From contig CAIKWV010000583.1 of the NCBI GenBank assembly GCA_903831165.1, positions 1-10,346 on the forward strand: a stretch of 10,346 nt of DNA. The letters run 5' to 3'. A program made the position numbers and the translations under genes. Positions 1,135-10,163 of this stretch are shown here, piece after piece; position 1 is the first letter of the stretch, and every line of letters begins with the position of its first letter. This DNA is from an uncultured cyanobacterium. GTDB taxonomy: Bacteria > Cyanobacteriota > Cyanobacteriia > PCC-6307 > Cyanobiaceae. The notes under the pieces are model-generated. The model was not told the origin of the DNA. It was given only the letters and a program-made list of their open reading frames with translations, and searched no databases.

Positions 1135-1677
1135 TTAGGGGAATCCCGGCGTGTTGCTCCGGCCGGCATGGGCCATGGCCAGGCGTCTGTAATGGCGGGC
1201 ATGGTCGTGTTGTGCCTGCACCGCCTCGGGGCTCAGTTCCCGTTTCAGCTGGGCCGGGGCCCCCATCACCAGGCTGGCGGGCGGCACATCCCGGGTCACC
1301 ACCGAGCCGGCGGCCACCAGGGAGCCGGCGCCGACGGTGACGCCGTTGAGCACGATGGCGCCGATGCCGATCAGGCAGCCATCCTCGATCGTGGCCCCAT
1401 GGATCACGGCCCGGTGGCCGATGGTCACGAGGGCGCCGATGCACACCGGTTGGCCCGGATCGCCATGCAGGATCGCGCCGTCCTGCACGTTGCTGCACTC
1501 GCCGATCAGGATCGGACAGACATCGCCCCGGGCCACCGCCGTCGGCCAGAGGCTCGATCCGGCCGCCATGCGCACGTCACCGATCAACACGGCCGAATCG
1601 GCCACCCAGGCCTCGGCATCGACCTGGGGATCAGGCCAGGGGGCGTCGGACACGGAACCAGCAGCGGCTGCGACCAT
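1135..1677 (-). CDS. Gamma-class carbonic anhydrase-like protein (left-handed beta-helix, YrdA/PaaY/CcmM-N relatives)
   Basis: This 180-residue protein belongs to the gamma carbonic anhydrase-like hexapeptide-repeat family, which forms trimeric left-handed beta-helices with zinc sites at the subunit interfaces. Using the ATG at 1677 as residue 1, the sequence shows the ARGD motif (R50, D52), NVQDG (N63, Q65), ILHGD (H71) and IGHRAVIHG (H88, H93). Those three histidines are the expected metal ligands. Hexapeptide turns ([37 protein letters not shown]) run through the middle, and the C-terminal [11 protein letters not shown] segment is also typical. A TTG two codons upstream (1683) is an alternative start. 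All zinc ligands are present, so activity is possible, but many family members have no demonstrated anhydrase activity or act on other substrates. It lacks the RuBisCO-like repeats of CcmM and is too short to be the carboxysome protein. It lies upstream of psbY on the same strand. Confidence 0.9.
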
Positions 1678-1847
1678 TCTCAATCGGCCCGGACGCCCAC
1701 GGCTGCGGCGGGCATGGCTGTCAGGGGCCGCTCAGGTCCCTTGCCGAAGGGGCATGGCCGGGTGATACGTTCACTGGGTGCTTGTTGCTGGGCAGCCCTC
1801 TGGGGCGACAACAACGGCGCAGCCCCACTCTCGGGGCCCCATCCAAC

Positions 1848-1919
1848 GGGTCGCTAGCTCAGCGGTAGAGCACTCGGCTTTTAACCGATTGGTCCTGAGT
1901 TCGAATCTCAGGCGACCCA
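1848..1919 (+). tRNA. tRNA-Lys (anticodon TTT)
   Basis: A 72-nt cloverleaf can be drawn by eye. The acceptor stem is GGGTCGC (1848-1854) with GCGACCC (1912-1918), and the discriminator base is A. The D-arm is GCTCAGCGGTAGAGC and the anticodon loop is CTTTTAA with anticodon TTT. The T-arm is CCTGAGTTCGAATCTCAGG. The outermost anticodon-stem pair appears mismatched (C/T). CCA is not encoded. The gene lies at the junction between core genes and an integrase remnant, as expected for a tRNA used as an integration target. I found no second copy of its 3' end in the window that would mark the other end of an element. Confidence 0.95.
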
Positions 1920-2166
1920 TTTTCTGAAACGCCTTGGAACGACTGCCTAATCGCTTGCAGGGCAAGGGATTTGGGGGTGTTGGCGCCCTCCCCCTAACGC
2001 GGAAGAAGTTCGGGAAGGGTCGCCGAATTGCGCAGCTGGGTCATTGGATTCGGCCTATGTCCCAAGCGGAAATTTTCGGTTGATGACATCAAGAATCCAG
2101 CAGGCGGATTTCAGAACCCTCCTCACCGTTACTGATCCGATGTCAACTCCCCTATCCCCTCTGTAG
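1920..2166. other. Gene-free spacer between tRNA-Lys and the integrase remnant
   Basis: No convincing gene is seen here. A GC-rich imperfect inverted repeat at 1973-1994 (GGGGG and CCCCC arms around GGCGCC) lies about 55 nt after the tRNA. It could fold in RNA but has no following T-run. The lost 5' half of the neighbouring integrase is not recognisable in the plus-strand frame I read, which meets a stop at 2164-2166. Confidence 0.4.
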
Positions 2167-2670
2167 CGCTCGAACGGGATTCTGCGGGCCTTCGGGGCCC
2201 CGTTGCGCCTGCACCGCCGCAGCCGCTGGGTGACGCTCGACGAGATCCTCCCCAATTGCAAGCCGACGTTCGTCAAGGAGGGCGGCCAGCCGTTTGATCC
2301 GCAGCAGGACCAGGTGAAGCGCTGCGACAACAACGAGCGCCTCGGGGCGGTCTGTTGCCACAAGCTGCGCAGCAGCGACGCCAAGGCCGAGTTCGAGCTG
2401 CAGCACAAGCTCTACGCCTGGGTGGAGCGCGCATCCGCGGACGGAAAAAAGAAGGTCCAGAAATGCAAGGAGCGCTGCGTTCCCTACGACCTGCGCCACG
2501 CCTACGCCATTCGCGCCCGTGAAACCACCAGCTGGAGCTACGCCGATGTGGCAGCGGTGATGGGCCACAGCCCGGAGGTGCACCGCCGCACCTACCTCAG
2601 CGAGATCAGCGGCGAACAGACCAAAGCGGCCGTCGTCCGCCGCCTGCTGGGCAACGAACAGGTCGCCTGA
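2167..2670 (+). pseudogene. Tyrosine recombinase (phage-type integrase), C-terminal catalytic remnant
   Basis: The frame is open from just after the stop at 2164-2166 to TGA at 2668-2670. The only early candidate start is a TTG at 2203, giving 155 residues. With that numbering, the C-terminal part carries VPYDLRHAYAIRA (R98, with Y95 where His or Lys is usual), then VMGHSPEVHRRTYL with H122 and the probable nucleophile Y131. These are the second arginine, histidine and tyrosine boxes of tyrosine recombinases. The N-terminal DNA-binding domain and the box with the first catalytic arginine are missing, since complete enzymes are typically 300-400 residues. I therefore read it as a 5'-truncated, inactive remnant. 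Its place about 250 nt from tRNA-Lys fits an element that integrated at that tRNA and then decayed. A small intact protein made from this frame cannot be excluded but would lack the full active site. Confidence 0.8.
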
Positions 2671-2696
2671 GGGGGGGCAAAGGCCCCGGGTGCTGG

Positions 2697-2724
2697 GGGG
2701 TGAGGGGGAATATTCCGTCACCCC
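2697..2724. repeat. Inverted repeat between convergent genes, possible bidirectional terminator
   Basis: The arms GGGGTGA (2697-2703) and TCACCCC (2718-2724) are perfect complements. They enclose a second, self-complementary 10-mer, GGAATATTCC (2707-2716). It lies in the short gap between the plus-strand integrase remnant (ends 2670) and the minus-strand small gene (ends 2731). A transcription-ending role for both is plausible by position, but there is no clear T-run on either side. Confidence 0.4.
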
Positions 2725-2730
2725 TCGACT

Positions 2731-2937
2731 TCAACTCTGTTGATCCCCCCGCCCCTCCGGCAGGTGCCTCGCCGACACATACCGATTGCGATTGCCGGAT
2801 CGATTGAGGTTGAGGTTCGCCCTGTGGATCTCCGCCTCAGTGGCGCGGGTGGCGTAGAGGGCGGTGCCGGTGTCGCGATGGAGGAGCACGTAATCCCCAG
2901 TTGGCTCACTGCCTTGAACGGGGGAAGACTCCGCCAC
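2731..2937 (-). CDS. Small protein of unknown function, third gene of the helix-turn-helix operon
   Basis: I do not recognise this 68-residue protein. It begins at a GTG (2937-2935) inside the 3' end of the upstream helix-turn-helix gene, overlapping it by 32 nt in another frame. The frame stays open far upstream (to 3147), but that part is a proline/arginine-rich shadow of the neighbouring gene. The protein-like section starts at about residue 14: GDYVLLHRDTGTALYATRAT, followed by a polar stretch (EAEIHRANLNLNRSG) and a basic end. It looks like a compact, soluble two- to three-strand domain with a helix. No membrane span or signal peptide is seen. The start codon is uncertain, since a GAGG lies about 14 nt upstream rather than at the ideal distance. 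Its position at the end of a tightly packed minus-strand run suggests co-expression with the two DNA-binding proteins. Confidence 0.5.
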   Translation of the reverse strand: MAESSPVQGSEPTGDYVLLHRDTGTALYATRATEAEIHRANLNLNRSGNRNRYVSARHLPEGRGDQQS

Positions 2938-3166
2938 GGCGCCGCAACGGCCTCGGATGCTCGCCAGCAAAGCGGTACAGCGCAGCTGGTACCAGCAGAT
3001 CAGAGCGGGGCGCCGCCGGGTTCTTCTTGACCCAGTGATGGCCATGGCGCAGCAACTTCTGCCGCCGCCAGCGGCCCAGGGTGGAGCGGCTGATCGGGAG
3101 GCTGCGGCAGAGGGCGGGGGGTTCCACCCAGGAGGGGCCCTGGGCATCGAGCTCGTGATCGTTCAT
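2906..3166 (-). CDS. Helix-turn-helix DNA-binding protein, excisionase-like (second tandem paralogue)
   Basis: This 86-residue protein is probably a small DNA-binding regulator or recombination directionality factor. Residues 13-65 resemble a winged-helix/excisionase fold: WVEPPALCRSLPISRSTLGR includes the recognition helix, followed by KLLRHGHHWVKKNP and RSDLL. It is clearly related to the adjacent gene; ISRSTL, LL..G.H.V.KNP and RSDLL occur in both in the same order and spacing. Its ATG (3166-3164) overlaps the TGA of the upstream gene in an ATGA junction, which points to translational coupling. The C-terminus is basic (PRPLRRRGG). The order tRNA, integrase, then small helix-turn-helix genes matches integrated elements, where such proteins often steer excision. 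The DNA-binding call is fairly secure; the excisionase role is inference. Confidence 0.7.
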   Translation of the reverse strand: MNDHELDAQGPSWVEPPALCRSLPISRSTLGRWRRQKLLRHGHHWVKKNPAAPRSDLLVPAALYRFAGEHPRPLRRRGGVFPRSRQ

Positions 3167-3363
3167 GGCTGCCTCCCGAGCGCCAGTTCACAGCGATGCA
3201 GGTGCCAGAGCAGGTCAGAGCGGCGGCAGCCGGGGTTCTTGGGCACCAGATGGCGGCCGGGCTTGAGCAGACCGCTGCGCTTGAGCGCAAACAGCGTGGA
3301 GCGGCTGATCGCCAGCTGGGCGCAGAGCTCCTCAGTGGTGAGCCAGGGGTTTGAGGGGGACAT
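3163..3363 (-). CDS. Helix-turn-helix DNA-binding protein, excisionase-like (first tandem paralogue)
   Basis: This 66-residue protein reads WLTTEELCAQLAISRSTLFA near its start (residues 7-26), a MerR/excisionase-type helix-turn-helix in which ISRSTL is the start of the recognition helix. It continues with RSGLLKPGRHLVPKNPG, which fits the wing, and RSDLLWHLHRCELAL as a closing helix. ATG at 3363 is the only sensible start; no good Shine-Dalgarno sequence precedes it. It is the first gene of a three-gene minus-strand run with overlapping junctions. It may bind DNA at the element's own ends or promoter, acting as an excisionase or repressor. The family assignment is by motif, and the specific role is inferred from the integrase remnant nearby. 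Confidence 0.75.
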   Translation of the reverse strand: MSPSNPWLTTEELCAQLAISRSTLFALKRSGLLKPGRHLVPKNPGCRRSDLLWHLHRCELALGRQP

Positions 3364-3744
3364 GGCAGCAGGGGCTGCCGGGGTGGAGGCAGAGGGGGCT
3401 ACCCAGGGGGGGCAGACCTATACCCGTGCGATCCATGGAGGGTCTGTGGGGTAAGCAAGCCCTGCCGATGACTTGGAACGCGGGGTACAGGTGGTTCTCG
3501 GACCCGTGAACCACGTTGTCGGTGGCCAGCATGAGCGGCTGAGGCTAGTCTTGGAAAGGGTTTTCAACCAAGGCCAGGATGGTGCTGGCTTGGTTCTCGG
3601 AAAGGAAGAGCCAGGAGCGGGTGGATCGCGGAACCTGCCAATAAAGAGTTAGCCGAATACCTGTCGTAGAAGCTGAGCCAGGCAACTGGGGATGGCGCTT
3701 ATGCCCTGTGTTGTTGCTACGGTAGAGGCAGTGGTGGATAGGAC
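3364..3744. other. Gene-free region between divergent units (helix-turn-helix operon and hicBA)
   Basis: No convincing gene is seen in these 381 nt. The region must hold the promoters of both the minus-strand operon and plus-strand hicBA, but no clear consensus boxes stand out. It contains a strong hairpin at 3566-3595 and a lone GTTAG at 3648-3652, the same pentamer that ends both attC-like palindromes further right. Confidence 0.4.
3566..3595. repeat. Hairpin-forming inverted repeat with one bulged G
   Basis: The left arm AACCAAG-G-CCAG (3566-3577) pairs with CTGGCTTGGTT (3585-3595) around a 7-nt loop, giving 11 base pairs with a single unpaired G. There is no T-run after it, so it is not a standard intrinsic terminator. 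It lies about 150 nt before hicB and could be a protein-binding site or a mobile-element relic. Confidence 0.5.
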
Positions 3745-3954
3745 ATGAATTTCACATTGGAGTGCGAGCAAGAGGTTGATGGACGCTGGATCGCAGAGGT
3801 TCCTGAACTGCCTGGCGTTCTCTCTTATGGCGACTCGGCTGCAGATGCAATGTCAAAGGCTGAGATATTGGCTCTTCGTGTTATTGCCGACAGGCTTGAG
3901 AATGGCGACTCCGAGCCCGTGAGTATCAGCTTATCGCTCCCCATCAGCGCATGA
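3745..3954 (+). CDS. hicB: HicB-type antitoxin (type II toxin-antitoxin system)
   Basis: This 69-residue protein matches the partial RNase H-like fold of HicB antitoxins, which bind and neutralise the HicA ribonuclease. The pattern is typical: a strand with acidic residues (FTLECEQEVDGRWIAEVPEL), then PGVLSYGDSAADAMSKAEIL with the PG..SYG turn and the following helix, and a final strand (SEPVSISLSLPIS). No C-terminal ribbon-helix-helix or helix-turn-helix domain is present, so this is the minimal HicB form and self-repression by HicB alone is doubtful. Its TGA overlaps the ATG of hicA (ATGA), so the pair is translationally coupled, with antitoxin first. Together with hicA it forms the coding part of a possible integron-style cassette that ends in the palindrome at 4181-4266. 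Confidence 0.88.
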   Translation: MNFTLECEQEVDGRWIAEVPELPGVLSYGDSAADAMSKAEILALRVIADRLENGDSEPVSISLSLPISA

Positions 3955-4163
3955 GTCCCTGGCCCTCAGTAAAAGCCAAAAAGGTGCTGGCTGCTCTCCA
4001 GTCCATCGGATGGCATGTAAAGCGTCAGTCAGGCTCACACAAGACTCTTGCTCGCGATGGCTTTCCAGATTTTGTTTTTGCATTCCACGATGGTGAGGAG
4101 ATTGGCCCCAGAATGTTGGCTCGCGTTGCAAAGAACACCGGTCTACAGCCGAGTGACCTGTGA
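3951..4163 (+). CDS. hicA: HicA-type toxin, mRNA interferase
   Basis: HicA toxins are small double-stranded-RNA-binding-domain ribonucleases that cut mRNAs and stop growth when not held by HicB. This 70-residue protein has the expected layout: helix (KAKKVLAALQSIGWHVKRQ), the SGSHKTL motif with the catalytic His at residue 30, the strand PDFVFAFHDGEEI, and a final helix that starts RMLARVAKNTGL. The full domain is intact and length is normal for the family. It overlaps hicB by 4 nt. The order hicB-hicA is the reverse of the classical hicA-hicB arrangement of E. coli. Downstream, 17 nt after the stop codon, begins an 86-nt attC-like palindrome, consistent with carriage on a gene cassette. Identification is strong; activity is likely but not shown by sequence alone. 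Confidence 0.88.
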   Translation: MSPWPSVKAKKVLAALQSIGWHVKRQSGSHKTLARDGFPDFVFAFHDGEEIGPRMLARVAKNTGLQPSDL

Positions 4164-4180
4164 GAAGCGTGTGAAATCGG

Positions 4181-4266
4181 CTAACTCACCCCTTGAGTGG
4201 ACAGGCCGCCGACCTGTTCTCGTAAGGAGCGATAGCTTTTTGCCTGCCACTCAAGGGCAGCGTTAG
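4181..4266 (+). repeat. attC-like imperfect palindrome 1 (after hicBA)
   Basis: The element runs CTAAC (4181-4185), a 4-nt spacer, CCCTTGAGTGG (4190-4200), a single unpaired A (4201), CAGGC (4202-4206), a 35-nt loop, GCCTG (4242-4246), CCACTCAAGGG (4247-4257), a 4-nt spacer and GTTAG (4262-4266). Outer arms pair 5/5, inner arms 11/11 plus 5/5, with one extrahelical base. This matches the R-spacer-L box layout and the length range of integron attC sites, which end in the GTT core where the integron integrase cuts. The 7-nt R' box GTTAGTG only partly fits the GTTRRRY consensus. A nonautonomous transposon relic is the main alternative. Confidence 0.6.
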
Positions 4267-4307
4267 TGGACACACACACCATGCACTTCTAGGAAAGGAA
4301 TAGCCCC

Positions 4308-5864
4308 ATGACCCTGATCGCCATCAACATCCTCCTGGATCCAGATGCAGTCACCGTTGAGAGGGCACAGGCGACGAACACTCGCCTACGCACAGATTAT
4401 CCAGGCGGTTTCGCCCTCGATGCCAACCACGCGCCGCACATCACCCTCCTCCAGCGGTTTGTGCACACGGCGGACCTCGATGAGGTCGCGAAGGCCGTGG
4501 TCGACGTGCTGCGAACGGAGCAGTCGCTGCATTGGCAAAGCAAGGCGACTGGCTTGTATGACCTTGCCCACAAGAATCTCGCCTTGGTGGGAATCGTGAT
4601 CGAACCAACCCAGGATCTGATTCGACTGCAGCAACGGATGATCGACGCGATCGCCCCGTTCGCTGTGGAGAAGGGCACAGGCGAGGCCTTTGCGCCCCGG
4701 CCCGACGGCGGGGCGATCAGCCAGCCGACAGTGGACTATGTGAACAACTTTGTCGGACCTCGCACCGGCCAGAACTACCACCCTCATCTGACCGTGGGTA
4801 TTGGTACTCGCGGCTTCGTGGACGCTCTCAAGGCGGAGCCCTTCGAGGCCTTCAGCTTCCGGGCCGTATCCGTAAGCCTCTACCAGGTTGGGGATTACGG
4901 CGTCGCCCAGAACAAGCTCTATGACCTCTCCACCGTTGCCGATCCTCTTCCCTCCTGGAATGATGGCGCCGCTAAACGGGAGATCCTCGCCTTCATCGCC
5001 AGGGTGACAACGGCTGGATCCCCCGACTTCTTGCCACAGGCAGAACGCATCGCCGTGTTTGATAACGACGGCTGTCTCTGGCCGGAGAATCCGATGCCGT
5101 TTCAGGCAGCCTTTGCCATCGATGAACTTAACCGGCGCATCCTTGCTGAGCCCACGCTTGCTTCCGATCCAATGGTGCAAGCCGCCCTGGCCGGCGATCT
5201 TGCCAAACTCCTGGAAGGCGACCACTTCGATGGCCTGATGCAGATCCTGGCGCTCACCCATGCCGGGATGACGAGCGACGAGTTTCGTGACGCCGTGGAG
5301 GCCTGGCTCGCCTCGGCCAAACATCCGCGCTATGGCAGGCCCTATGACGAACTCACCTACCTACCGATGCAGGAACTGCTGAGCTATCTGCGGGCCAATG
5401 ACTTTAAAAACTTCATCGTTTCCGGTGGTGGCGTCGACTTCATGCGCGTCTGGGTGGAGCGTGTTTACGGCATCCCACCGGAGCAGGTTGTCGGCTCGAC
5501 AGCCCGGACCACCTTCGAGCTACGGGACAGCGGCCCAGTGCTCACAAAAACTCTCGACTACTTGTTCGTGAATGACAAGGCGGGCAAGCCAGTGGGGATT
5601 CATCAGTTCATCGGCCGGCGACCGATTATCTGTTGTGGAAATAGTGACGGCGACCACGCCATGTTGCAGTACACCACGATCAACAACCCGCGCCCTAGTT
5701 TCGGTCTGATCGTCCACCATACCGACGATGAACGTGAATATGCCTACGACGCCAACACGAAGAGCACCGGCAAGCTTGTCGAAGCCCTCCGGGAGGCCCC
5801 CACTCGCGGCTGGCTCGTTGTGGATATGAAGCAGGACTGGAATGCTCTCTTCCGTCCCGAGTAG
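4308..5864 (+). CDS. Fusion protein: 2H phosphoesterase (2'-5' RNA ligase/cyclic phosphodiesterase family) + HAD-superfamily phosphatase
   Basis: This 518-residue protein joins two phosphate-handling enzymes. Residues 1 to about 212 form a 2H phosphoesterase, with motifs HAPHITLLQRF (H44, T46) and HPHLTV (H160, T162). Enzymes of this class open 2',3'-cyclic or ADP-ribose cyclic phosphates, or act on 2'-5' bonds in RNA. Residues from about 222 to 518 form a HAD phosphatase: FDNDGCLW (D252 nucleophile, D254), VSGGGVDFMR (S372), NDKAGKP (K424 or K427) and CGNSDGD (D447). Between motifs I and II is a helical cap. Both active sites appear complete. There is no signal peptide or membrane span, so a cytoplasmic location is likely. 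The ATG at 4308 has an AGGAAAGGAA purine tract 8-17 nt upstream. A two-step reaction, cyclic phosphate opening and then removal of the phosphate, is a reasonable inference; the substrate is unknown. It lies between two attC-like palindromes. Confidence 0.85.
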   Translation: MTLIAINILLDPDAVTVERAQATNTRLRTDYPGGFALDANHAPHITLLQRFVHTADLDEVAKAVVDVLRTEQSLHWQSKATGLYDLAHKNLALVGIVIEPTQDLIRLQQRMIDAIAPFAVEKGTGEAFAPRPDGGAISQPTVDYVNNFVGPRTGQNYHPHLTVGIGTRGFVDALKAEPFEAFSFRAVSVSLYQVGDYGVAQNKLYDLSTVADPLPSWNDGAAKREILAFIARVTTAGSPDFLPQAERIAVFDNDGCLWPENPMPFQAAFAIDELNRRILAEPTLASDPMVQAALAGDLAKLLEGDHFDGLMQILALTHAGMTSDEFRDAVEAWLASAKHPRYGRPYDELTYLPMQELLSYLRANDFKNFIVSGGGVDFMRVWVERVYGIPPEQVVGSTARTTFELRDSGPVLTKTLDYLFVNDKAGKPVGIHQFIGRRPIICCGNSDGDHAMLQYTTINNPRPSFGLIVHHTDDEREYAYDANTKSTGKLVEALREAPTRGWLVVDMKQDWNALFRPE

Positions 5865-5900
5865 AGGTAATTCGTTAACGGCCAATGTTGGTTTTGCTAG

Positions 5901-5984
5901 CTAATAATCCCGCTGCGTGCGGACCGAACATTAGTTGTCGATCAGACCGAGAAGTTGTCTGAGGTGGGTGAGCGGGAACGTTAG
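5901..5984 (+). repeat. attC-like imperfect palindrome 2 (after the 2H-HAD fusion gene)
   Basis: CTAAT (5901-5905), spacer AAT, CCCGCT (5909-5914), a central region, AGCGGG (5971-5976), spacer AAC and GTTAG (5980-5984). Outer and inner arms pair with equal 3-nt spacers, and a separate hairpin TCAGAC/GTCTGA (5942-5947 and 5957-5962) sits in the centre. Length is 84 nt, against 86 for the first element, and both end CGTTAGT. The inner arm is shorter and one outer pair is G-T, so it is weaker than the first. A competing stem (AATGTT at 5884-5889 with AACATT at 5927-5932) partly overlaps it. Confidence 0.4.
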
Positions 5985-6000
5985 TCATCCCATCATCCCT

Positions 6001-6620: not shown

Positions 6621-9600
6621 CTACGATTTATTTAGAGCCGGTAATGCTTGGATTAAGCAGCACAGCCGATTGATCTGTTCAGCCTCCTCAACCGTATTGG
6701 CAACACCGCTTGCCAGCCCTGGCGATCCCACGACGATCGAGAGGCACTGGGCGCGGCTGATCGCCACGTTGAGCCTGTTGGGCTCTAGGAGGAAACCGAG
6801 ACCCCGCGGTGCCTCATCTCCGTTACTGGCGGTGAGCGAGTGGATGGCCACCGGGGCTTCTTGCCCCTGAAATTTGTCGACCGTGCCGACCCGTGCCTTG
6901 CCTCCAAGCCGCTGCTGCAGCCGGTTGACCTGCGCGTTGTAGGGAGCAGTCACCAAGATCTGTTCTGGGCCCAAAACACCTCGTTGGTCTTCTCCTGCAT
7001 TGGCATGGCAGTAGCGACTGCCAAGCAAGGCGTCGATGATCTGCTCGATCCGATCGATCTCGGCCTCGCTGACTACGCTGCAGCCGCTGTGCGCGACTGG
7101 CTCGAACACCAGGCCTTGATCGGGTAGTGGTTTGGACGACGCACCCAGAAAGGGTTGCCGCCACTGGATCGCATTGACGGCATTGGCGGGATTGGCGTGG
7201 AGACGGCCGTCGTAGAAGAGTTGGGACACCATCGCTGTGAGCGAGGGCTCCATCCGCCAGCTCGTCGCCAGAAACACACCCCGATCGGCTGGCACGACAT
7301 GGGCGCCTTGCATCAGGTACTCCAGGCACGACAGCCCTGAGTCGCCCGGGTGATCGGCCTGCGAGGGCTGGGCGAGTTGCTGCTGATCACCGACCAACAG
7401 GATCGATCGGGCGCAGCGGGCGATCACCAACAGATTGGCCAGCGACATCTGGCCGGCCTCATCGATCACCAGGAGGTCGAACTGACCATCCATCTCATCA
7501 CGACAGAACATCCAGGTGGTCCCGCCCACCACGGCCATATCGCCTGTGATGGCAGCTGGTGGGACCAGCTCAATGCCAGTGCCCTCCAGCTGGGCCTCCG
7601 CCTTGCTGCTGCTGCACTTCACCACTCCAGCATCAAGGCCTTCCCTCTGGCAGGTGTTCTGGACCTTGATCAGAAGGTTGTTGATGGCGGCGTGGCTGTT
7701 TGAGCTGATCGCCACTCGCTTGCCTTTGGCCACCAGCTGGGCGATCAGCTGGCCTGTCACCGTGGTCTTTCCTGTGCCGGGTGGTCCCTGCAGGGCAAGG
7801 GTGCAGTCGCTTCCTGCAGCCAGAAACTGGCTCAGGCGTAAGGCGACGGAACCGGGCTCACCGCTAATGGCATGATTCAGCCCCTCTAACTCTTTGATGG
7901 GGCGGCGTTCCAGCAGTTGGACCATCGCCGGAGGCAGAGGCTTACCGCCATTGAGCCAGCCGTTGGCCTGGTCGAGCAGGCTGTCACGCAACTTCTCGCT
8001 GATGTCGGCAGGCACCTTGATGAGTGAGGTGAGGCTCTGCGGGATGCCATCGCCAAGGCCGTTGGCCTGGCGTTGATCCCGCTTGCGCCAAGGCAGCTTG
8101 AGAGTCACGCGGCCACGCTCAGGATCGAGTGAGTCGACGCCGACCTTCAACCCGGTTTCGGGGATTTCCAGCTGCAAGCCCCGATCACCGCTGCCGGCCG
8201 AGAGCTTCAGTGGCTGGGAGGGATCAAACGCGAAGGTGTGGTAGTCGGCTCCTGTGAGCTTGCTCTCCCTGGCTTCCACGCCGATCCAGCGGGCCAGTGC
8301 AATGGCCTCCCCATCGTCCATCAACTCAGCTGGGCTTTGCTCGGCTTTGGAACGGCGATCGAAATAGGTCCACCAGGCCACCTTGGCTTCCCGGTGGTGG
8401 AACGGAAGCAGCTGAGCAAGCAGTCTCTGCACCCGCCAGCTCATGCCCCGCTGGCCGTCCTCGTTCTGGAGAGCGAGTAGCTCATCAGTGGCATTCGCCG
8501 GTGGATCGCTCTGGAGAACCTCGGGGAGCTCAGACAGAAGCATGGCGCTGAGCTGCTCCAGGGGCCACGGCTCTTTGGCTTCCTTCGCCTCGGCTTCTGT
8601 TGCCAGCGGTTGATCCGGTAGCCCGACCTGACGACGAAGCGCGAGCAACCAGTCGTGGAGGAACACGGTGGACTCGCAGTCTTCCCGGTTGTAGTTCTCG
8701 ATCCCCTTCAGCAAGGGGCTGCCTTCGGGCAGATCGCCGGGCCGCAGCGGTTCACCGGAGTTCTGCCAGTTCAGGTAAGCCACCACCGAATCCCCGGCAT
8801 TGGTCACCTCGGCAGAGCGCGCCTCCATGTAGAGGTGCTCCACCTTCTTGATCGAGTAACTGGGCTCGCCAAGCACGATCGAACCCGTCACCACCGGTAG
8901 AAGATCCACCAACAGGCCTGAGCGCAGCCAGTCATCGATCACCGCCTCGCGGGTGCAGTGTTGCTGGGCCAGCCGGCGCATCGCCGTCTTCTCATAGCTG
9001 GCGTAGTGGTAAACCCGCAGGGCTGGGAAACGGTGGCGCCGCGCTTCCACCCAATCCACCCAGTCCTCAAAAGCCTTCCTCTCCTCAACGGGGCTGTGGG
9101 CCCACCAGGCCTTGAATTGCGGCTGGCCAGGGGCGTCGCGGTAGCAGGCCCCAAACAGGTATTCGAGCTTGGTGCCGGCCACCGAGTCCTGGATCCCCTC
9201 CATGTCGAACCAGATGTCCCCGTCATCGGCTGCAGGCAGTGCTGCCAAACCTTTTCCGGTGACGACGGGCCGCAGACGGTAGGCAGGCCTTCCATCAGGC
9301 CCCGCGGGGGTGAGTTGAAGTTCAGCCTGCTGCCTGAGTTCGTGCAGGGTCTCGGGACTCAAGCCCGGAATCGCAGTGCCAGCAGGCACGGCCGCCAGCG
9401 CGTCGATGGTGGTGACTCCGGCGGTGCGCAGCTTGAGGCGCTGGCTCTGGCGCATGTTGGCCACCAGCATCAGGTCGCGCTGCTCCGCCAGGCGCTGGTC
9501 GATAAAGGTGCTCCAGCCGCCGTGATCACCGGGCATGTCCTCAGGAACCACCTGCGGATCGAACGCTTCTCGAAAAGCGCGATAGCGCTGACGCAGCAGT

Positions 9601-10163
9601 TGGTACCAGGCCCAGAACTGATCCGTGCTGTAGCGCTGGAAGCGGCCACCACCGAGGTAGAGGTCAAAATGATCGGGCCGGTGGCCTAGAAGGGGTGTGA
9701 GCAGCTCGCAGTAGGCCGAGGCTTGCACCAAAAAGGTGGTCTTGGGCTTGGAGGCAAGCTTGCACTCGATCGGGATGTAACTCCATGCTCCAAGCAGGGA
9801 GGGCTGTTCGGTGCGGCGCAGGAGGTCTGCTGAGCCGCGCATCTCGTCGTTGCAGAGGGAGGCCTGGTGTATGAAATCGAACCCCTCGTGCATTGCTGCC
9901 TTGGTAGCGGCGTAATCGGGCTCGTCCTGCTTGCCGGGCAGCCTGGCCACACGATGACCCTTGGCTTCCAGCTTGGTGAGCAGTACCTGCTCATGGCGCA
10001 AGCCGTCGGCAAAGAGCTGCTGATCAAGAGCACTGTCTTCTGGCTTCTCTCCCAGAAACAGTCTGCGGGCTTGCAGCTCTTCCCACCAAGCCCCGATGAT
10101 GGGACTACGGGAAAAGAGTGCAAGTTTACTTGGGGTAATGGGATAGTTCACAACTGCCGTCAT
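6621..10163 (-). CDS. TM0106-type RecB-like nuclease / RNase H-like / superfamily 1 helicase multidomain protein
   Basis: This 1180-residue protein appears to combine three activities on nucleic acids. The N-terminal part is a RecB/Cas4-like PD-(D/E)XK nuclease: RHEQ with H57, GSAD (D113), IECK (E133, K135) and QASAY (Q147, Y151). Next, about 310-510, is a predicted RNase H-like domain with WFDMEG (D320, E322) and YNREDCEST (D495). The C-terminal part, about 760-1150, is a Dna2/Upf1-like SF1 helicase: Walker A QGPPGTGKTT (792-801, K799), DEAG (901-904), GDQQQL (925-930), VDKFQGQE (1095-1102) and NRLNVAISRAQ (1129-1139). All key residues are present and the frame is intact. ATG at 10163 is used; no strong Shine-Dalgarno sequence is seen. 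Proteins with this layout occur in cyanobacteria and others, but their role is not established; DNA repair or defence are the likely options. It stands alone, with only the transposase fragment downstream. Confidence 0.9.
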   Translation of the reverse strand: MTAVVNYPITPSKLALFSRSPIIGAWWEELQARRLFLGEKPEDSALDQQLFADGLRHEQVLLTKLEAKGHRVARLPGKQDEPDYAATKAAMHEGFDFIHQASLCNDEMRGSADLLRRTEQPSLLGAWSYIPIECKLASKPKTTFLVQASAYCELLTPLLGHRPDHFDLYLGGGRFQRYSTDQFWAWYQLLRQRYRAFREAFDPQVVPEDMPGDHGGWSTFIDQRLAEQRDLMLVANMRQSQRLKLRTAGVTTIDALAAVPAGTAIPGLSPETLHELRQQAELQLTPAGPDGRPAYRLRPVVTGKGLAALPAADDGDIWFDMEGIQDSVAGTKLEYLFGACYRDAPGQPQFKAWWAHSPVEERKAFEDWVDWVEARRHRFPALRVYHYASYEKTAMRRLAQQHCTREAVIDDWLRSGLLVDLLPVVTGSIVLGEPSYSIKKVEHLYMEARSAEVTNAGDSVVAYLNWQNSGEPLRPGDLPEGSPLLKGIENYNREDCESTVFLHDWLLALRRQVGLPDQPLATEAEAKEAKEPWPLEQLSAMLLSELPEVLQSDPPANATDELLALQNEDGQRGMSWRVQRLLAQLLPFHHREAKVAWWTYFDRRSKAEQSPAELMDDGEAIALARWIGVEARESKLTGADYHTFAFDPSQPLKLSAGSGDRGLQLEIPETGLKVGVDSLDPERGRVTLKLPWRKRDQRQANGLGDGIPQSLTSLIKVPADISEKLRDSLLDQANGWLNGGKPLPPAMVQLLERRPIKELEGLNHAISGEPGSVALRLSQFLAAGSDCTLALQGPPGTGKTTVTGQLIAQLVAKGKRVAISSNSHAAINNLLIKVQNTCQREGLDAGVVKCSSSKAEAQLEGTGIELVPPAAITGDMAVVGGTTWMFCRDEMDGQFDLLVIDEAGQMSLANLLVIARCARSILLVGDQQQLAQPSQADHPGDSGLSCLEYLMQGAHVVPADRGVFLATSWRMEPSLTAMVSQLFYDGRLHANPANAVNAIQWRQPFLGASSKPLPDQGLVFEPVAHSGCSVVSEAEIDRIEQIIDALLGSRYCHANAGEDQRGVLGPEQILVTAPYNAQVNRLQQRLGGKARVGTVDKFQGQEAPVAIHSLTASNGDEAPRGLGFLLEPNRLNVAISRAQCLSIVVGSPGLASGVANTVEEAEQINRLCCLIQALPALNKS

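Follow-up and report, generated by a model that had tools for sequence, protein, structure and literature searches.

A gene at positions 4308..5864 on the forward strand of a 10,346-nucleotide stretch of DNA from an uncultured, Synechococcus-like cyanobacterium (contig CAIKWV010000583.1; the whole stretch is hereafter called the window) encodes a protein of 518 amino acids in which a 2H phosphoesterase is fused to a HAD phosphatase. Sequence comparisons indicate that this protein probably acts in two steps on one substrate, for which a 2',3'-cyclic ribose phosphate is the likeliest candidate; we are less sure of this substrate, taken on its own, than of the two-step action. We infer that both sites are active and act in sequence: the 2H half would open a cyclic phosphate (or cut a short phosphodiester) and leave a terminal phosphomonoester, from which the HAD half would then strip the phosphate. 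The likeliest substrates would be 2',3'-cyclic nucleotides or the 2',3'-cyclic ends produced by RNA breakdown, with a nucleoside and phosphate as products. The pair appears to be exported in alphaproteobacteria, where it would work outside the cytoplasm, and to be cytosolic in cyanobacteria, where it is often fused. In the genus of the window, it seems to have spread as an integron cassette.

Two domains with complete catalytic motifs in one chain

The fused gene is a single open reading frame (ORF) from ATG to TAG. Its first part (4308..4931, forward strand, as for all features of this gene) encodes the 2H half, residues 1-208, of which residues 22-166 match PF13563 (2_5_RNA_ligase2; E 3e-8). 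Its second part (4941..5861) encodes the HAD half, residues 212-518, of which residues 249-454 match PF12710 (HAD; E 1e-7), and both Pfam matches exceed their curated cut-offs. The HAD half belongs to the family of PDB entry 4ovy, which residues 212-515 match with an E value of 4e-101 and to which the fold alignment gives 50% identity across 309 columns. This half also has a single PHROG match, to a group without known function (E 3e-27), and its conserved start, DPLPSWN, coincides with the point at which many relatives begin after a signal-peptide-like segment. When the 2H half was modelled separately, its top fold matches were E. coli LigT and the plant cyclic phosphodiesterase (CPDase) for ADP-ribose 1'',2''-cyclic phosphate (Appr>p), at identities of 10-16% in the fold alignments. 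Profile searching of the PDB gave this half chance-level matches only, and it was the fold search that succeeded. By these comparisons, the N-terminal half has a 2H fold and the C-terminal half a HAD fold.

The two H-x-[ST] motifs of the 2H superfamily are present as H44-x-T46 (4437..4445) and H160-x-T162 (4785..4793). The DxD, S/T, lysine and acidic motifs of the HAD superfamily are likewise present as D252-x-D254 (motif I, 5061..5069), S372 (motif II, 5421..5423), K427 (motif III, 5586..5588) and D447-x-D449 (5646..5654). H44, T46 and H160 are invariant in a 13-row 2H alignment, and T162 is almost invariant. In a 34-row HAD alignment that includes one 2H-only row, conservation reaches 90% or more at D252, D254, S372, K427, D447 and D449 and falls below this level at K424. 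An earlier note on this DNA, made from the sequence alone, had called both active sites complete, and all ten residues that it named, from H44 to D447, are in place. Its choice of K424 or K427 can be narrowed: K427 is likely the motif-III lysine because it is conserved and K424 is not.

Recurrence of the fusion and selection on both halves

The union of the two domains in one chain, as claimed in the earlier note, is confirmed and extends beyond this genome. The fusion is also found in frame in five others (G184, G022, G043, G160 and G1208), and in G176 it is split by a contig break, its two parts lying on separate contigs with an identical overlap of 126 nucleotides. An assembly join or other artefact is rejected because the fusion recurs in frame in other genomes. 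Relatives from the same genus carry the labels Synechococcaceae bacterium and uncultured cyanobacterium. A phage origin was dismissed with no match among 50,697 phage records, as were a viral origin (six viral-contig stretches fit a pattern, none of which encodes a relative) and a defence system (the fused protein has no PADLOC match).

The 2H and HAD halves alike look to be under purifying selection. Ratios of nonsynonymous to synonymous substitution rates (dN/dS) between the window and L023, G184, G043 and G176 range from 0.11 to 0.23, and the ratio for G184 versus L023 is approximately 0.2. For the 2H half, the underlying dN/dS values for the window are 0.10/0.59 (versus L023), 0.12/0.56 (G184) and 0.24/1.06 (G043), and for the HAD half they are 0.07/0.51, 0.08/0.52 and 0.13/1.12, respectively. 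The least constrained pair, G043 versus G022, has ratios of 0.34 for the 2H half (0.045/0.134) and 0.26 for the HAD half (0.021/0.080).

Linkage of the 2H subfamily to phosphatases

A total of 27 distinct 2H loci were assembled from the window's order (399 genomes; 10 loci), a species-genome scan (4), the class of Aestuariivirga (6) and plasmids (7). At 22 of these the 2H domain is fused to a phosphatase, linked to one or accompanied by a remnant; three loci could not be judged, and two have no phosphatase. The in-frame fusion accounts for seven loci, G176 included, and one further fusion carries a stop codon (G052). One 2H domain is fused to a different phosphatase (Ensifer). Three loci have overlapping or abutting genes (G207, G208 and Aestuariivirga): the letters ATGCTGGCTGA are common to the HAD gene start and the 2H gene stop in G207 and G208, and the genes abut or overlap in Aestuariivirga according to the start that is chosen. 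The genes are same-strand neighbours at six loci (G566, one G994 copy, G972, two Streptomyces plasmids and Rhodococcus JCM 15477) and lie ~1.9 kb apart in Rhizobium jaguaris. Remnants make up another three (an HAD remnant in G1045 and G1177; both halves decayed in G944). The three loci at contig ends are G1115, the other G994 copy and G993, the last of which has no HAD gene upstream of 2H within the sequence covered. That 2H and HAD are often separate neighbouring genes in other bacteria suggests that they catalyze successive steps on the same compound.

The 2H subfamily is rare. With the best few candidates per genome scored, it turned up in 10 of the 399 genomes searched in the window's order and in 2 of 385 from the class of Aestuariivirga. 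Searches of one further phylum (0 of 346 genomes) and one further class (0 of 229) were empty, an outcome that is informative only when backed by a positive control. The earlier note had regarded both halves as common families, which holds for the widespread HAD family and fails for the 2H subfamily.

A different phosphatase partner in Ensifer

On a plasmid of Ensifer sp. PDNC004, the 2H domain forms the C-terminal part of a 503-amino-acid fusion (L103 5119-6630, between two sulfatase genes) with a PAP2/class A acid phosphatase (E 9e-19) as its N-terminal part. This phosphatase part matches the NCBIfam PhoC model with an E value of 1.6e-46, under that model's cut-off, and is unrelated to HAD. 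Its acid phosphatase motifs, which we take to be K-x6-RP, PSGH and SR-x5-H-x3-D, are complete by eye. The 2H part is under the Pfam cut-off, yet it aligns well among the 13 rows of the 2H alignment and clusters with HAD-partnered 2H domains of alphaproteobacteria (tree support 89/88). Together with the linkage above and the matching predicted export described below, this exchange of partner supports the single two-step pathway that the earlier note had proposed.

Predicted export and neighbouring genes

Export was judged from a simple hydropathy reading of N-termini rather than with a signal-peptide predictor. By this reading, a hydrophobic stretch lies just ahead of DPLPSWN in most rows of the HAD alignment, except for those from close cyanobacterial kin and plasmid actinobacteria. 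Both partners have signal-peptide-like N-termini in four alphaproteobacterial pairs (G566, G994, G972 and R. jaguaris), which would therefore be used outside the cytoplasm, and the Ensifer fusion also has a signal-like N-terminal stretch by eye. Neither partner has such a stretch in the cyanobacterial, Streptomyces and Rhodococcus JCM 15477 pairs. The Aestuariivirga 2H protein has none, and the start of its HAD partner is ambiguous.

Sulfatase genes are present in 64 of 109 stretches, duplicates included. The gene order is sulfatase-HAD-2H in G566 and G994, and a gene for a DUF2490 protein comes next in G566. DUF1254-DUF1214 proteins, which are encoded beside 2H or HAD genes in Rhodococcus and G184 (L022 9621-11150; L158 5835-7346), were considered as a third partner and set aside as a weak association only, found in 10 of the 109 stretches. 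The gene is directly 3' of the Rhodococcus pair, and in G184 it apparently lies within a separate cassette.

The fused gene as an integron cassette

The fused gene looks like a mobile integron gene cassette, judging from the recombination sites and homology boundaries around it. attC sites combine paired arms with core sites, and the sequence at 4179..4268 (forward strand) fits this consensus. It ends the preceding cassette, has its crossover point at ~4262 and stops 40 bp before the start codon of the fused gene. A covariance model scores this site at 67.3 bits (E 8.5e-16), the site itself being among the 14 on which the model was trained. A pattern scan gives it a score of 16.5, compared with at most 12.5 in three base shuffles; at scores of at least 13, the scan reports one site in 63,338 shuffled bases and four in 112,007 bases of other stretches, three of them in L130. 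The site also resembles others in G176 and G207 that lie ~3 to 6 kb away from an integron integrase. The candidate site after the gene (5899..5986, forward strand) is weak (13.3 bits, E 0.049, the third row for the window) and is the only other forward-strand place in the window near significance by the covariance model; a search of 21 sources under default filters, which reported E values of up to 1, did not return it. The corresponding site in G176 reaches 19.7 bits (E 0.003). The gene is thus preceded by a strong attC site and followed by a weak one.

The inferred cassette spans 4263..5980 (forward strand). DNA homology between the window and L023 begins at 4257, at the crossover point, with differing DNA before it, and G176 matches the window from 4241 to 5982 in two pieces. 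The preceding cassette encodes a HicBA pair, comprising a HicB-like antitoxin (3745..3954, forward strand; PF15919, E 4e-4, under the Pfam cut-off) and a HicA toxin (3951..4163, forward strand; PF07927, E 7.6e-12). The window, G176, G184 and L023 carry the fused gene beside attC sites with different flanks. In G184 it is located among 10 attC sites on one contig that ends in an integrase fragment, and a stretch 70% identical to the window's HicBA pair (3745-4163) is on the opposite side of the fused gene. No attC site was found in G184 in the interval separating the fused gene from the HicBA-like pair that follows it; by eye, the cassette's own site appears decayed. L023 has several attC sites (1326-3699), in a genome without an integron integrase over the cut-off. 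Since this locus is labelled Chloroflexi, it reflects either inter-phylum transfer or misbinning.

Among the best 150 candidates per genome, attC sites number 52 in G176, 15 in G184, 11 in G1177, and one each in the window's genome and G1208, the last on a different contig from L023; the model found none in G022, G160 or G200. The stretches fetched around the fused copies in G022, G043 and G160 also had none. Of the 17 genomes searched, five (G176, G1177, G160, G207 and G208) hold an integron integrase over the cut-off, so that G160 has an integrase and, among those candidates, no attC site of the modelled type. No integrase was found in the genome of the window, which is 64% complete and in 640 contigs. 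Integrons of cyanobacteria and Chloroflexota are already in print (PMC8352920, PMC9668308), and the setting of the fused gene shares attC sites, an integrase in the same genus and cassette arrays with the chromosomal integron cassettes of cyanobacteria. No published cassette with 2H-HAD content was found by title or abstract opening. The integron setting was absent from the earlier note.

Evidence against two-step action and alternative explanations

Several observations weigh against sequential action of the two domains on one substrate. The mean predicted local distance difference test score of the 2H-half model is just 67.6, and the full-length model made to relate the two active sites cannot show their mutual position, its 2H half being poor. 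The HAD half is closer to choline-phosphate phosphatase than to any nucleotidase. Some linked copies are, or may be, damaged: the HAD half of the G052 fusion is interrupted by a TAA roughly 12 codons from its start, the HAD gene is cut short in one of the two Streptomyces plasmids, and that of Rhodococcus JCM 15477 is annotated as two pieces and may be broken. The 2H genes of Rhodococcus CS98 and TG-1 have no phosphatase of the kinds described above within 6 kb (12.6-kb stretches). From 132 matches to the fused protein, 80 loci were retained, and just 9 of these, in 8 genomes, include a 2H match, so that the HAD family works mostly without 2H. Finally, the halves have been lost separately, in that G1045 and G1177 keep 2H with an HAD remnant, L028 keeps HAD with a clear 2H remnant (5909-5971), and L071 keeps HAD with a doubtful one (5906-5977). 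Both of these 2H remnants lie where a UDP-glycosyltransferase gene ends, directly upstream of the HAD-only genes.

Other functions can be considered in light of the same data. In cytosolic healing of RNA ends or clearance of Appr>p, a by-product of tRNA splicing, the 2H half would open the cyclic phosphate and the HAD half would remove it. This would suit the lack of a signal peptide by hydropathy in the cyanobacterial, Streptomyces and Rhodococcus pairs, and the plant Appr>p enzyme is the nearest fold to the 2H half. It is nonetheless unlikely, given that both partners appear to be exported in four alphaproteobacterial pairs, that no RNA ligase, kinase or macrodomain gene is among the neighbours named (naming covered part of them), and that the patchy, partly cassette-borne spread is unlike that of a housekeeping function. 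The RNA-end repair and tRNA-splicing roles raised in the earlier note are not supported, for the first two of these reasons. We consider it no more likely that the pair scavenges other organic phosphate or sulfate esters, with a phosphorylcholine-phosphatase-like HAD half, a 2H half that cuts the matching diester, and the neighbouring sulfatases taking part. The four sulfatases that were scanned are far under the curated cut-offs for choline sulfatase and arylsulfatase, and the substrates of known 2H enzymes are cyclic or 2'-5' ribose phosphates. Moreover, among the fused cyanobacterial stretches surveyed, to which the window does not belong, a sulfatase-like match was found only in G184 (28-31% identity).

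Degradation of a cyclic oligonucleotide signal, for signal control or counter-defence and with the HAD half finishing the product, is quite improbable. The absence of PADLOC and phage-record matches and of a confirmed viral contig counts against it, as do the named neighbours, which are hydrolases with no defence gene among them, in a naming that included no scan aimed at defence genes. The least credible possibility is that the halves are unrelated in activity, or that the 2H half only binds substrate, and that the fusion is neutral. Single halves do survive in some genomes, and a frame change between overlapping genes makes fusion and fission easy. However, linkage recurs in both gene orders, the 2H domain is also fused to an unrelated phosphatase, and dN/dS is well under 1 in both halves.

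Comparison with known systems

Two-step action on a cyclic ribose phosphate would resemble that of CpdB, a periplasmic 2',3'-cyclic phosphodiesterase/3'-nucleotidase in which cyclic phosphodiesterase and nucleotidase steps are combined in one exported protein (PMC4905662); the proposed net reaction, from cyclic nucleotide to nucleoside and phosphate by one polypeptide, would be the same. CpdB has metallophosphoesterase and 5_nucleotid_C domains, whereas the fused protein has the unrelated 2H and HAD folds. Because neither CpdB domain was found in it by Pfam (E values of 0.1 or less), it would be at most a functional analogue. We tentatively suggest that it may be a second, independently built CpdB-type solution, in which a rare 2H domain relies on a phosphomonoesterase of any fold (HAD in most lineages, PhoC-type in Ensifer) joined by operon, overlap or fusion, and which forms a mobile cassette in Synechococcus-like cyanobacteria, so that the two steps would travel together.

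LigT, which converts 2',3'-cyclic nucleotides to 2'-nucleotides (PMC5283653), and the Arabidopsis Appr>p CPDase share the fold and the two HxT motifs of the N-terminal half, but their solved chains of ~170-185 residues lack a phosphatase domain. PDB entry 4ovy, a Planctomyces limnophilus HAD hydrolase of the same family as the C-terminal half, has no 2H domain in its chain, and its title gives no function. Pseudomonas aeruginosa phosphorylcholine phosphatase PchP has the HAD fold and motif set and is periplasmic (PMC3170909), a location also suggested for many relatives of the HAD half. However, PchP is ~20% identical to the HAD half, and its solved chain lacks a 2H domain. The phosphoesterase domain of STS-1 and STS-2 is of the 2H type. 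These proteins also unite phosphoesterase and phosphatase domains, but they function in animal signalling, carry UBA and SH3 domains, and have a phosphoglycerate-mutase-type phosphatase that acts on phosphotyrosine (PMC10252698).

Both families are already known; what is new is the architecture, the exchange of partner and the cassette. No publication on a 2H-HAD fusion was found by title or abstract opening, and a mention in the 2002 classification of the 2H superfamily is possible. If the two-step action is correct, it would give a biochemical role to this 2H subfamily and to the widespread 4ovy-type HAD family, for which no prior role was found. The swapping of unrelated phosphatase partners would then be evidence for a shared two-step reaction, and an integron would be able to spread a whole phosphate-releasing function in a single cassette.

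Other features of the window

A tRNA-Lys (TTT) gene is located at 1848-1919 on the forward strand, and no 12- to 30-base segment of its region was found exactly repeated elsewhere in the window. The ORF at 2203-2670 resembles the end of a tyrosine recombinase by eye, and Pfam finds nothing there. On the reverse strand, 6621-10163 encodes a protein of 1180 amino acids with a TM0106-type RecB-like nuclease and a superfamily 1 helicase part (TIGR03491, over the cut-off), and the helicase part has MkoA-like matches in PADLOC. The ORFs at 1-921 and 1135-1683 (reverse strand) resemble, as judged by eye, a partial TrmFO and a gamma-carbonic-anhydrase-like protein.
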